Assembly (NCBI RefSeq): GCF_947501165.1
Contig: NZ_CANMUU010000002.1
Location: 806,001-870,000, forward strand
DNA length: 64,000 bases
Reading direction: 5' to 3'
From: an uncultured Allomuricauda sp.
Lineage (GTDB): Bacteria; Bacteroidota; Bacteroidia; Flavobacteriales; Flavobacteriaceae
Below, piece after piece: positions 46,553-50,677 of the stretch. The notes under the pieces were generated by a model. That model was not told the DNA's origin. It did not search any database and worked only from the letters and a program-made list of their open reading frames with translations. The number at the start of each line of letters is the position of its first letter. The first letter of the stretch is position 1. The position numbers were made by a program, and so were the translations under genes.

Positions 46553-47392
46553 TTACAGAAGTTTAAATGAAATAATATCTCCGAATTTTTTTTGCGCCAA
46601 TACACTTATAGATTTATCAGATAATTGTAGCACCCTTGGGTAACCTCCCGTAGTTTGTCCATCTTTCATTAAGATGATCAATCTTCCTGTAGGAGTCAAC
46701 TGTACAGTGCCTGGTAATGTTCCCGATGTTAAAATAGAATGGGAATGTGTTCCTATTTCTTCTGTAAGTTGATATGCCATTCTATTATTCTCTTTTGAAA
46801 CAGTAAAGTCTTTTGAAAAAAGTGGTTCCAAATGAGCATCTGTCAATATTGAGAACTCTGGTCCTTTGAAAACTTCAATATACTGCTGTTCTAAATGATT
46901 TTCGAGTTTCAACTCCGAAATTGCCGGCTCATACTGCTTTACAGGTTCGTATGGAATTTCATCAGAATCTTTGAAGCATTTTGTTGATGTTACTGGATAG
47001 TATTGAGAGTAGCTACCTAGCACCTTATCCCCATGAAATCCGTTTTTTATGGCCAAATACGTTCTAAAACCGTTTTCCAACTTTCCATAAGAAAGAATGT
47101 CGCCTGCCTCTACCTTGATCACTCGGTAATTATCAATGGGTTTATTGTTCAGTGTAGGTGACATGCGAGCCCCTGAAAGACATATATAAGTGGGCGATTC
47201 AAACAATAAGGTTGGCCCGGTCATGGTAATTTCCAAAACAGCATCTTCTTGCTGGTTTTCCAATAATACATTCGCCTTTTTTACAGAAACCTCATCCATA
47301 ACCCCAGAAACGGGAACTCCTATATTGCGATACCCAAACCTACCAAAATCCTGTAGCGTTGTATAAAATCCAGATTTTAAGAATTTAAGCAT
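46553..47392 (-). CDS. pxpC: 5-oxoprolinase subunit C
   Basis: 279 residues of the biotin-dependent carboxyltransferase/KipA-AHS2 family: LKSGFYTTLQDFGRFGYRNIGVPVSG (read in parts), MDEVSVKKANVLL, EITMTGPTLLF and the C-terminal SGTLPGTVQLTPTGRLIILMKDGQTTGGYPRV (in parts). ATG 47392, which overlaps the pxpB stop by eight bases, is preferred to an in-frame start six codons upstream. With PxpA and PxpB it would cleave 5-oxoproline to glutamate using ATP. Confidence 0.93.
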   Translation of the reverse strand: MLKFLKSGFYTTLQDFGRFGYRNIGVPVSGVMDEVSVKKANVLLENQQEDAVLEITMTGPTLLFESPTYICLSGARMSPTLNNKPIDNYRVIKVEAGDILSYGKLENGFRTYLAIKNGFHGDKVLGSYSQYYPVTSTKCFKDSDEIPYEPVKQYEPAISELKLENHLEQQYIEVFKGPEFSILTDAHLEPLFSKDFTVSKENNRMAYQLTEEIGTHSHSILTSGTLPGTVQLTPTGRLIILMKDGQTTGGYPRVLQLSDKSISVLAQKKFGDIISFKLL

Positions 47393-48119
47393 CCAAAGGT
47401 ATCTTTTCAAGATTATAAATTCCTATTTCGCCTTCAATTTTACGCAAATCATACTCTGCTTTGGAAATGGATTGAAATTGAATTTTATCGCCTGCTTTTA
47501 CAAAGCAAGGCTTCTCATGGGAAGCATCAAAAACCGGTACCGGACAATTCCCTATTATGTTCCATCCTCCTGGAGAGTCTTGTGGATATATTCCTGTCTG
47601 TTTTCCTGCAAGGCCCACCGAACCCTTTTCTACATGAAGTCTAGGTGTTTTGCGTCTGGGCAATTGCAAAGATTTTGGCAACCCTCCCAGATACATAAAT
47701 CCAGGTAAGAATCCTATTCCGAAAACAATATATTCGTATGAAGTATGCTGTTTTATCAGTTCTTCCTTAGTTAAATCTAGAGATTTAGCAGTTTTCTGAA
47801 TATCAATCCCGAAATCAGATTCATAGCATACGGGCAGTTTCCATAGAAAACGTTCATTTTGAACAGACCTGGTATTTTTCTCATAAACCTCCAAAACTCG
47901 AGCTTTTGCAGTATCAAAATCAAGTTTTGCGCCCGACAACGAAATCATGGTTACGGAATTATACGCCGGAACCAACTCCCATTCGCGCTGATATTTATTG
48001 GTAAAAGCGCTAACAAACGCAAGAATATCATTCAAAATGGATTCCTTTACTTCAATGGGCCATTCAATCAAAAGAGCTTTCTCTCCAAAGGGTCTTATGG
48101 TTAGGGGGACTTCTTTCAC
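47385..48119 (-). CDS. pxpB: 5-oxoprolinase subunit B
   Basis: 244 residues of the KipI/AHS1 family: IRPFGEKALLIEWP, ELVPAYNSVTMIS, YEYIVFGIGFLPGFMYLGGLPKSLQLPRRKTPR (read in parts) and GSVGLAGKQTGIYPQDSPGGWNIIG. It starts with GTG at 48119 within a GTGA overlap with the pxpA stop, so the two are translationally coupled. It is the ATPase-side partner of PxpC. Confidence 0.93.
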   Translation of the reverse strand: MKEVPLTIRPFGEKALLIEWPIEVKESILNDILAFVSAFTNKYQREWELVPAYNSVTMISLSGAKLDFDTAKARVLEVYEKNTRSVQNERFLWKLPVCYESDFGIDIQKTAKSLDLTKEELIKQHTSYEYIVFGIGFLPGFMYLGGLPKSLQLPRRKTPRLHVEKGSVGLAGKQTGIYPQDSPGGWNIIGNCPVPVFDASHEKPCFVKAGDKIQFQSISKAEYDLRKIEGEIGIYNLEKIPLDA

Positions 48120-48859
48120 TTGCTTAAAACTATATTATGCTTTGGCAATTCTTTTGAAAGATACTGTAATATTTGTAATGCTGAGGGAGTATCGCCATGA
48201 ATACAAATGGTATCCATCCGGATTCTCAAGGTTTCACCTGACAAAGTCCTTATTTCTCTCTTTTGTACCATTGGCAAAACATGCTGAAGCACCTTTTCTG
48301 GTTTTGAAATAAGCGCCTCTTTGTGGGTTCTTGAAACCAAAGTCCCATCTGAACTGTAATTTCTATCGGCAAAAGCTTCGTAACATACCTCTATTCCATA
48401 TGTTTTTGCTAAAAGAGCGACTTGGGAGCCAGGCAATGCATAAATTCTCTTTGTTAAACCCGATTCAAGAACCACTTCTAAAAACAATCTGGCTAGTTCT
48501 GCATCTTTAGCAATTTGGTTGTACAATGCTCCGTGTGGTTTTATATGATTCACAAGGATTTCTTGCTGTTTTGCGACTTTACCGAACATGGATAGTTGCT
48601 CTGAAAGGCTATTTCTTAATGCATCCTTTGAGATATCCATTACTTTCCTGCCAAAATTAAGCTTATCAGGATATGATGGGTGAGCACCGATTTTAACGGT
48701 GTGTCTTTTTGCTAATCCAATGATTTCAAATATAGATGAGCTTTCACCCGCATGACCCCCACATGCAATATTACACGAACTGATATGCGGAAAAAGTTGA
48801 GCTTCGTTTCCTACCCCTTCGCCAACATCACAATTTAAATCTACATACCACTTTTTCAT
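48116..48859 (-). CDS. pxpA: 5-oxoprolinase subunit A
   Basis: 247 residues of the LamB/YcsF family: VDLNCDVGEGVGNEAQLFPHISSCNIACGGHAGES (in parts), IGAHPSYPD, NHIKPHGALYNQIAKDA and YEAFADRNYSSDGTLVSR. It is the third component of bacterial 5-oxoprolinase. Its ATG lies immediately after the stop of the Nramp-like gene, with no base between, so transporter and enzyme share one operon. Confidence 0.95.
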   Translation of the reverse strand: MKKWYVDLNCDVGEGVGNEAQLFPHISSCNIACGGHAGESSSIFEIIGLAKRHTVKIGAHPSYPDKLNFGRKVMDISKDALRNSLSEQLSMFGKVAKQQEILVNHIKPHGALYNQIAKDAELARLFLEVVLESGLTKRIYALPGSQVALLAKTYGIEVCYEAFADRNYSSDGTLVSRTHKEALISKPEKVLQHVLPMVQKREIRTLSGETLRIRMDTICIHGDTPSALQILQYLSKELPKHNIVLSK

Positions 48860-50056
48860 CTAAAAAAACTCCAACACCTTAAAAATGCTCTTTACCCCTA
48901 AAAATATCGCGAATAGTACAATCAATACGCCAACAACATTTTGAATGGGTTTATTCACATGGCTGCCCATCACTTTCTTCTGGTTAACCATCCATAAAAG
49001 AAGTACTGCCATTATAGGCAACAATACTCCATTGGCCACTTGAGCAAATTGAATGACTTGTATTGGTTTAATGTCAAAAGAAAGAAAAAATACTCCCAAG
49101 AAAAGAATTGAAATCCAAATTAATCGAAACTTAGGATCTTTCATCCCATCCTTCCAACCAAAACAACTACTTGCCACGTAGGCAGCTGCCAGAGGGGCGG
49201 TAATCGCAGAAGTAATTCCAGCTAACAAGAGTCCCAGTCCCATGAAATAAAGCGCCATTTTTCCAAAGAGGGGTTCCATAGCCTTTGCCATATCCACTGC
49301 ATTCGTAACATTATCCAAATCTGCGGCCGCCGCAGTAATAATAATCGCTATGGAAACCAACCCACCTACTCCAACAGAGACCAAGGTATCCCAACGCATC
49401 AAGGACAAATCTTTTTCAGAACCCCACTTTTCTCTTACCAAAGAAGCGTGCAAAAAAAGATTATAGGGAACAACAGTTGTTCCCACCAGAGCCACTATAG
49501 TCAATACGCTCTGTTCTGGTAAAGTAGGGACAAACGCTCCTTTTACAATTTCAATAAGTGAAGGCTTAGTTAGTATGGCAGCGATTACAAAACAAAGTCC
49601 CATCATGCCCACCAAGCCCATGAATATTTTTTCAAGCGATTTATAGCTTCCAAACCATAGAATACCAAATGCCAAAAAGCCGACTAAAAGTGGATAAATG
49701 GGAAAAACTAGAGGCATTTCAAAAATAGCATTCAAACCTAAAGTAGCACCTCCAATATTCCCGGCTTCATATGCCGCATTCCCTATTAGAATTGCGGCTA
49801 GTACAATCCCCAACACCAGATTCTTTGTCCATTTTTTTGTCAATTGACTTCCAATAACATCTACAAGGCCTTTTTGGGTTAGAACCCCTATTCTACCAGC
49901 CATCTCCTGTAGAATTATGGTACAAACTATAGATACCAATAAAGCCCAGATAAGGGCAAATCCAAACTTCACTCCTGCAATTGTACAAATAGTGATGGTG
50001 CCTGGGCCCACAAAGGCAGCAGCAACTAAAATGCCGGGGCCAATTTTTTTTAGCAT
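48860..50056 (-). CDS. Nramp-family transporter with altered metal site, in the 5-oxoprolinase operon
   Basis: 398 residues with about eleven hydrophobic segments in the Nramp (SLC11/LeuT) order. In known Nramp proteins the first helix carries DPGN and the sixth MPH; their Asp, Asn and Met bind Mn or Fe. Here the first helix reads VGPGTITI, with Gly17 for Asp and Thr20 for Asn, and the sixth reads VVPYNLFLHA, with Val196 for Met and Tyr198 for His. The main metal ligands are thus gone. It is the first gene of the operon with pxpA, B and C, ending where pxpA starts. It may move another cation or even 5-oxoproline; the substrate is an inference. Confidence 0.85.
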   Translation of the reverse strand: MLKKIGPGILVAAAFVGPGTITICTIAGVKFGFALIWALLVSIVCTIILQEMAGRIGVLTQKGLVDVIGSQLTKKWTKNLVLGIVLAAILIGNAAYEAGNIGGATLGLNAIFEMPLVFPIYPLLVGFLAFGILWFGSYKSLEKIFMGLVGMMGLCFVIAAILTKPSLIEIVKGAFVPTLPEQSVLTIVALVGTTVVPYNLFLHASLVREKWGSEKDLSLMRWDTLVSVGVGGLVSIAIIITAAAADLDNVTNAVDMAKAMEPLFGKMALYFMGLGLLLAGITSAITAPLAAAYVASSCFGWKDGMKDPKFRLIWISILFLGVFFLSFDIKPIQVIQFAQVANGVLLPIMAVLLLWMVNQKKVMGSHVNKPIQNVVGVLIVLFAIFLGVKSIFKVLEFF

Positions 50057-50140: not shown

Positions 50141-50233
50141 TTGCCCCCCGTAGTACTTGTTTTATACGAATATGGAAATGGTAGAGTTATAATAATCCCA
50201 AATCTAATTATTAAACTTAACCGACCAATACTT

Positions 50234-50677
50234 ATGACCTGTAAGGAATGTGGTACTAAGATTACCCGTGAAGAAAATGAAGCTTCGTATGATGTTATTG
50301 GTGTTTCTCTTTGTGAAAAACACCTTAAACTTATTAAGAGAATCATTTTGAACAATAACACGCCACTTGAGGCCATTCAATTGTTTTATGCCCTAAAGGA
50401 AAAAGGAGCACAACCTATGTTGGAATGGTGGGACGGCAAAAAATCCGTCGACATCGCCTTCTCTAGGGTAAAACTTAATATTGAGATTGACACTCAATAT
50501 GACCTTATAACCCATGAGCAAGCCTTAAAGGACCTTGAGGAATCCATGCATTCTTTTAAAAATGGGTTCACTACCATACGAATTCCGCATTTGACCGTCA
50601 AATATTACCTTGAAGATACGGTAGAGAACATTCTGGGCATTATTTCTAGTCTAAAGTCCAATATTAAGGTTATATAA
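50234..50677 (+). CDS. Zinc-ribbon protein with probable DUF559-type nuclease fold
   Basis: 147 residues from ATG 50234, chosen because the zinc ribbon begins there (a longer TTG reading adds 31 residues without family character). Cys3, Cys6, Cys27 and His30 form CxxC-x20-CxxH. A helical stretch follows, then VDIAFSRVKLNIEID (Asp73, Glu84, Asp86) and a helix-strand end GFTTIRIPHLTV. This order (D, strand with E-x-D, helix, final strand) resembles the DUF559/Vsr-like restriction-endonuclease fold. No methylase or partner is adjacent. The nuclease call is an inference from pattern. Confidence 0.55.
   Translation: MTCKECGTKITREENEASYDVIGVSLCEKHLKLIKRIILNNNTPLEAIQLFYALKEKGAQPMLEWWDGKKSVDIAFSRVKLNIEIDTQYDLITHEQALKDLEESMHSFKNGFTTIRIPHLTVKYYLEDTVENILGIISSLKSNIKVI

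Follow-up and report, generated by a model that had tools for sequence, protein, structure and literature searches.

A Nramp-fold transporter lacking the canonical metal ligands, encoded with PxpABC in Allomuricauda, as a probable importer of 5-oxoproline

Nramps are textbook metal importers. The canonical Nramp/MntH proteins (clades A and C) and clade B proteins such as BfraNramp carry a DPGN motif in TM1 and an MPH motif in TM6. Other branches are marked by their TM1 motif, which is described in PMC8806188 as DxxG for the NRMT magnesium transporters and DxxN for the NRAT aluminium transporters. A further group has been given two different functions. In C. glutamicum, growth on 5-oxoproline depends on pxpT, whose product shares 50% identity with YcsG of B. 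subtilis (PMC13274462). YcsG itself was reported as a Mn importer and named MntG (PMC10448178), and MumT, from the mumTLUHC operon of A. baumannii, was likewise reported as a Mn importer (PMC5050338). The group holding MntG corresponds to 'G-motif 3' in PMC12873925. The Figure 1 legend of that paper terms the Nramp-related groups besides the NRMT-like and G-motif 3 proteins entirely uncharacterized.

We analysed a stretch of 64,000 nucleotides (the window) from an uncultured Allomuricauda sp., in which a Nramp-like gene precedes the three genes of a 5-oxoprolinase. The features of the locus are collected in Table 1.

Table 1. Features of the transporter and pxp locus in the window
Feature	Position	Strand	Basis
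Proposed 5-oxoproline importer (398 aa), Nramp fold, GPGT clade	48860..50056	-	ORF, PF01566, AlphaFold2 model
TM1 break, residues 17-20, GPGT replacing DPGN	49997..50008	-	Alignments; model helix break at 16-17
TM6 break, residues 196-198, VPY replacing MPH	49463..49471	-	Alignments; model helix break at 195-196
pxpA, 5-oxoprolinase subunit A (LamB/YcsF)	48116..48859	-	PF03746 274.5 bits; NF003814 255.3, cut-off 226
pxpB, 5-oxoprolinase subunit B	47385..48119	-	PF02682 222.6 bits; TIGR00370 166.5, cut-off 145.55
pxpC, 5-oxoprolinase subunit C	46553..47410	-	PF02626 240.4 bits
Divergent gene beside the pxp operon, function not assigned	50141..50677	+	Listed start TTG; without Pfam or NCBIfam match

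The window protein matched the Pfam Nramp family PF01566 with 305 bits over residues 25-369. Residues 17-20 read GPGT and residues 196-199 read VPYN, and HMMER alignments to BfraNramp (10ky) and DraNramp (8e5s) paired G17 and T20 with the Asp and Asn of DPGN, and V196 and Y198 with the Met and His of MPH. The original prediction of a Nramp-like protein with these four residues in place of the metal ligands was borne out by a 107-row alignment, in which D, N, M and H occupied the four positions in 12/12 DPGN-labelled rows, these rows having been labelled canonical or clade B beforehand from the DPGN motif. Among the 65 rows of the clade that holds the window protein (the GPGT clade), G17, V196 and Y198 were kept throughout, and position 20 was Thr in 63 and Ser in two. 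None of these 65 sampled rows retained any of the four metal ligands, and neither did the GPGT proteins of the 63 same-phylum genomes. In TM3, E97 and N100 aligned with D131 and E134 of DraNramp (numbered as in PMC12873925) when the printed alignment was read by eye.

An AlphaFold2 model built from 43 sequences (mean pLDDT 90.9, pTM 0.90) predicted a LeuT-type fold with both TM1 and TM6 broken (Table 1). The closest folds to this model were Nramps, namely DraNramp (Z 49.9), EleNRMT (44.8) and BfraNramp (43.6). The amino-acid carriers AgcS (32.1), AdiC (30.2) and ApcT (29.9) ranked lower, as did KimA and others, and no family membership is claimed for any of them. These APC/LeuT-fold carriers resemble the window protein in fold and in a G-x-G at the TM1 break (for AdiC, PMC5877779), but they form a separate family, and AdiC, ApcT and AgcS share 10-15% sequence identity with it. 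EleNRMT and the window protein both lack the TM6 Met, whereas EleNRMT (7qia) has Asp at position 17 and Gly at position 20; these two residues were present in 7/7 rows labelled NRMT from that motif. The DxxN of NRAT is not matched by G17 and T20 either. From the Pfam match and the predicted breaks in TM1 and TM6, we assign the window protein to the Nramp superfamily (SLC11 fold). In the window genome, a profile search found no second Nramp above the Pfam cut-off. The nearest named homologues, two Maribacter proteins (L153 and L170), are 59% identical to the window protein.

A careful tree was computed from 60 rows, 47 of the 107 having been dropped by our own choice as near relatives or surplus, with row labels assigned from motif and score beforehand. 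The DPGN rows (canonical and clade B-like) formed one clade with support of 100/100, the NRMT rows with one relative another (100/98), and YcsG/PxpT/MumT-like proteins a third, the Y clade (100/100), on a branch of 3.3 changes per column. The GPGT clade (99/97) comprised 33 rows including the window protein, and other Nramp-related rows were scattered over the tree. The AU test rejected a grouping of the window protein and the DPGN rows (p 0.0036). The same test gave p 0.147 on the larger 107-row quick tree; that tree was poorly searched, an AU-test run having found a better one, and our conclusions therefore rest on the careful tree. GPGT and Y as one clade were not rejected (p 0.159 on the careful tree, 0.83 on the quick tree). 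Placement in the metal clade is thus rejected by the 60-row tree and its AU test, and in that tree the window protein lies outside both the metal (DPGN) and the NRMT clades, in agreement with the original view that it is not a Mn/Fe Nramp. Several other Nramp-related groups likewise had G-x-G at TM1 but differed in their TM6 segments (L083, L084 and L093; L089-L091; L247, L251 and L253; L249 and L252).

The TAG stop codon of the transporter gene directly abuts the ATG of pxpA, the adjacency noted in the original prediction, and pxpB and pxpC follow, pxpA and pxpB overlapping by 4 nt, so that all three subunit genes are adjacent. PxpA and PxpB exceed their NCBIfam cut-offs (Table 1). PxpC falls under its own (TIGR00724, 213.2 against 230.2; NF045499, 179.4 against 500) and is assigned from the Pfam CT_A_B match and gene order; its start is listed as TTG, with an in-frame ATG six codons downstream. 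This layout suggests that the transporter is co-expressed with PxpABC. A pattern scan of the 144 nt upstream of the transporter, using a Bacteroidota-type promoter pattern, gave no match.

Beside the operon, the divergent gene has homologues in other pxp loci (L034, L035, L036, L153, L159, L170 and L299) and appears as a conserved neighbour of such loci. A gene for a beta-keto acid cleavage enzyme (BKACE, PF05853; 50842-51711, plus strand) also adjoins the operon, and no homologue of it was found in the examined stretches of the other loci. L299, from a genome of the same family (G182), shows what by eye appears to be the same order of acylase, YifB-like gene, homologue of the divergent gene, pxpABC and ilvD with the transporter missing, and offers a natural comparison strain.

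We examined the neighbourhood of the transporter in a sample of 296 genomes of the window's phylum, the window genome included. A close homologue (at least 339 bits, the next score being 239) was found in 36 of them. PxpA was present in 35 of these 36 core genomes, and in 31 of the 36, again counting the window genome, pxpA lay within 2 kb of the transporter. PxpA stood away from the transporter in four genomes (G053, G076, G111 and G194), and the 36th, G282, carried a hydantoinase/oxoprolinase-family gene 619 nt off on the other strand. Gamma-glutamyltranspeptidase is an enzyme of gamma-glutamyl compound breakdown, and at L045 (5384-7126) a gene for it (PF01019) was observed near the GPGT transporter of G053, which is distant from pxpA.

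A further 27 genomes carried GPGT proteins of subgroup b (VPYN, 18 genomes) or subgroup c (VTYN or VAYN, nine genomes), and the GPGT residues were read in all 63. A hydantoinase-family gene was found in the stretch at 13/19 subgroup b loci (the 18 genomes plus the Qipengyuania plasmid L096); the stretches of the other six contained no enzyme gene, nor did those examined at the nine subgroup c loci. This partner carries Hydantoinase_A and Hydantoinase_B domains, which have no relation to the CT and LamB_YcsF domains found in PxpABC. Hydantoinase A and B also lie directly downstream of the transporter at all five haloarchaeal GPGT loci examined (L094, L097, L098, L149 and L151), one of which additionally has an Asp/Glu racemase family gene, and a hydantoinase A/B-family neighbour occurs at the Bacteroidota loci L116, L118 and L272. 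Outside subgroup b, supported branches of the 60-row tree force three changes of the hydantoinase label. An Alkalihalobacillus protein encoded beside pxpBAC is 60% identical to a Haloferax protein encoded beside hyuAB. The best solved matches of the hydantoinase-family partner were an N-methylhydantoinase, 6yra (deposited as a 5-oxoprolinase) and acetone/acetophenone carboxylases; its probable specificity is given at the level of the family, which includes 5-oxoprolinases.

Loci of other Nramp kinds served as comparison. pxpABC was found in none of 19 such wide loci, one of which (L074) had, on the opposite strand, a weak hydantoinase-like match scoring 49 bits. Nine further control loci (L247-L254 and L264) held neither pxpABC nor a hydantoinase gene, and no hydantoinase gene was found near L099, a haloarchaeal Nramp of a different type with 29% identity, or near an Alicyclobacillus Nramp (L100).

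Linkage to pxp genes is common but not universal. Among 80 named loci, 33 had pxpA with pxpB or pxpC, one had pxpA at a contig end and four were of the hydantoinase type, while the examined flanks of 42 contained no pxp or hydantoinase gene. The expectation that homologues with the GPGT/VPYN residues always neighbour pxpABC is thereby ruled out. The outcome named at the outset as speaking against a link to the pathway, homologues lying mostly away from pxp genes, was found in part. These unlinked loci carry less refuting weight than intended, because all 25 of the 42 unlinked genomes that were searched carry a candidate enzyme elsewhere, PxpA in 24 and Hydantoinase_B in the 25th (Endozoicomonas, L172). 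Neighbours conserved around the unlinked gammaproteobacterial genes looked like lineage synteny.

Genome-wide counts extended this association beyond gene adjacency. PxpA or Hydantoinase_B was present in 63/63 GPGT-bearing genomes of the phylum sample and in 38/233 others (Fisher 4.5e-38). Genomes with other Nramps only showed no such association (20/129, against 18/104 without a Nramp match, p 0.71); about 19 loci of these 129 genomes were read for residues and the remainder were classed by score. Similarly, in the gammaproteobacterial order of G317 (L156, Microbulbifer; 244 genomes, homologue cut-off at least 291 bits), PxpA was found in 21/21 homologue-bearing genomes and in 110/223 others (p 9.5e-7), and by coordinates it adjoins the transporter in G317 and G968 only, the transporter of G752 ending at a contig edge. 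These p-values overstate the association because the genomes are not independent and the counts ignore shared ancestry.

We then asked what occupies the position of the transporter in other pxp loci. Of the sample, 22 genomes had PxpA without a close homologue, and 20 of their loci were read. A Y-type (YcsG-type) Nramp stood beside or near pxpA at nine, and a MFS permease lay between pxpC and pxpA at two (L296 and L297). The stretches of the remaining nine held no Nramp, L304 among them having a MFS gene nearby. None of the nine Y-type genomes was among the 63 GPGT genomes. That permeases of unrelated types occupy the same slot is consistent with import of the pathway substrate.

YcsG, PxpT and MumT resemble the window protein in belonging to the Nramp family, in their place in a pxpABC operon, in having Gly for the TM1 Asp and in lacking the TM6 Met and His. 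However, the Y clade has GPGF at the TM1 break and GGY at the TM6 break, against GPGT and VPY in the window protein, which over aligned columns shares 26-29% identity with five Y members and in a separate comparison shares 22% with the deposited YcsG model chain 9a52_A (one printed string among the Y rows, L285, is an off-frame extension). Orthology is ruled out by the tree, in which the fully supported Y clade excludes the window protein, and by these identities; the separate clade and low identity thus distinguish it from YcsG/PxpT/MumT although it holds the same operon place. At Bacillus badius L305, pxpA, a Y-type Nramp and a putative hydro-lyase stand in a row, with pxpB and pxpC adjoining on the other strand, while at A. 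baumannii L308 pxpA and then a PxpB/C fusion come after the Y transporter, an arrangement consistent with the mum operon. Gene order suggests that these and the other Y loci hold YcsG/MumT orthologues. The mumTLUHC-like locus L308 reads as a 5-oxoprolinase-type operon; it was published as urea carboxylase and Mn import (PMC5050338). The surroundings searched in Alkalihalobacillus and Streptomyces genomes contained no recognisable B. subtilis or C. glutamicum gene.

Taken together, we consider it probable that the window protein imports 5-oxo-L-proline (pyroglutamate), or else a lactam acid very like it, both the substrate and the direction of transport being inferred. That a different Nramp-related protein, PxpT of C. 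glutamicum, is needed for 5-oxoproline growth (PMC13274462) counts in favour. A secondary transporter of the Nramp (LeuT-type) fold would bring 5-oxoproline into the cell, where PxpABC would use ATP to open the ring, giving glutamate. The TM1 break, with Gly where metal Nramps have Asp, would then be G-P-G, like the helix-breaking GSG or GAG of APC amino-acid carriers. In AdiC, the carboxylate of the substrate is bound by the amide that follows the GSG serine; models of LAT1 are in accord, and two related carriers have GAG (PMC5877779). A backbone amide of GPG may hold the carboxylate of the substrate as in these carriers, and the rest of the pocket may be lined by T193, T194, Y198 and N199 of TM6 and E97 and N100 of TM3. 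Points against the 5-oxoproline reading include the Mn claims for YcsG and MumT, the tolerance of EcoDMT to changes in its site, the position of the window protein as the one Nramp above the Pfam cut-off in its genome, the uncertain specificity of the hydantoinase-family partner and the many unlinked members.

The original prediction had offered two substrates, another cation needed by the pathway or 5-oxoproline itself, and it is the second that we favour. Import of a divalent cation (Mn2+, Mg2+ or another) for oxoprolinase or glutamate metabolism through a rebuilt site appears unlikely. It would accord with the Mn phenotypes of YcsG (PMC10448178) and MumT (PMC5050338) and with the model lying nearest to metal Nramps in fold, and since the window genome has no other Nramp above the Pfam cut-off, a metal role can be argued. 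Missing ligands do not by themselves exclude a metal, as binding-site mutants of EcoDMT retained Mn transport according to PMC8806188. However, all four ligands are replaced in 65/65 rows, and the window protein lacks even the TM1 Asp that EleNRMT keeps (motif in PMC8806188). Moreover, MFS permeases occupy the same slot at two loci, and members of the clade occur with two enzyme families, unrelated to each other but both including 5-oxoprolinases, a pairing that a shared substrate explains well and a cofactor metal poorly.

A second alternative, to which we give somewhat less credence still, is that the protein carries a related organic or amino acid (L- or D-glutamate, proline, a hydantoin-type compound or another lactam acid), with 5-oxoproline one of several substrates or a minor one. 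Drift is possible in subgroups b and c and among the unlinked gammaproteobacterial members, the substrates of the hydantoinase-family neighbours are uncertain, and the racemase gene at the one haloarchaeal locus points the same way. The core clade, in contrast, is tied through its PxpA to a pathway from 5-oxoproline to glutamate in all but one of its genomes. That gene order merely records lineage history, with the transporter unrelated to 5-oxoproline, is very improbable: the contexts in Alteromonadales and Cellvibrionales do look lineage-specific and lack a pxp gene, but co-occurrence holds without linkage (21/21 in the order of G317, two of them linked, and 25/25 unlinked named genomes searched), and the enzyme swaps are separate on the tree.

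Returning to import of 5-oxoproline, the original wording that the substrate 'has changed' presumes a metal-transporting ancestor. When the superfamily is rooted with NSS carriers, as in PMC12873925, Nramp-related proteins are paraphyletic around the canonical ones, so the absence of metal ligands may be ancestral rather than the remnant of a lost metal site. It is conceivable, at slightly less than even chances in our estimate, that the Gly-motif Nramp-related proteins of the GPGT and YcsG/PxpT/MumT clades are carriers of 5-oxoproline-like organic acids with an amino-acid-type site, that a side branch later acquired metal binding through Asp and Met, and that the Mn phenotypes of MntG and MumT are indirect.

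What is new here is that the slot for 5-oxoproline uptake can hold a second Nramp-related family, distant from the first, whose partner enzyme has been swapped. The parts of the open-licence literature covered by our search held no description of the GPGT-clade transporter or of the enzyme swaps, and a search there for 5-oxoproline uptake in marine flavobacteria gave nothing on this gene. A scan counted at least 589 relatives of the query among at least 598 matching stretches, and plasmid records annotate GPGT-clade members as 'Nramp family divalent metal transporter'. If 5-oxoproline is carried, many genes would be misnamed and the Nramp fold would carry organic acids. The conflict over YcsG, 5-oxoproline or Mn, would then become directly testable, as a second distant family together with an unrelated enzyme would separate the substrate from a cofactor metal. 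The same result would bear on the order in which amino-acid-type and metal-type sites arose in the superfamily.
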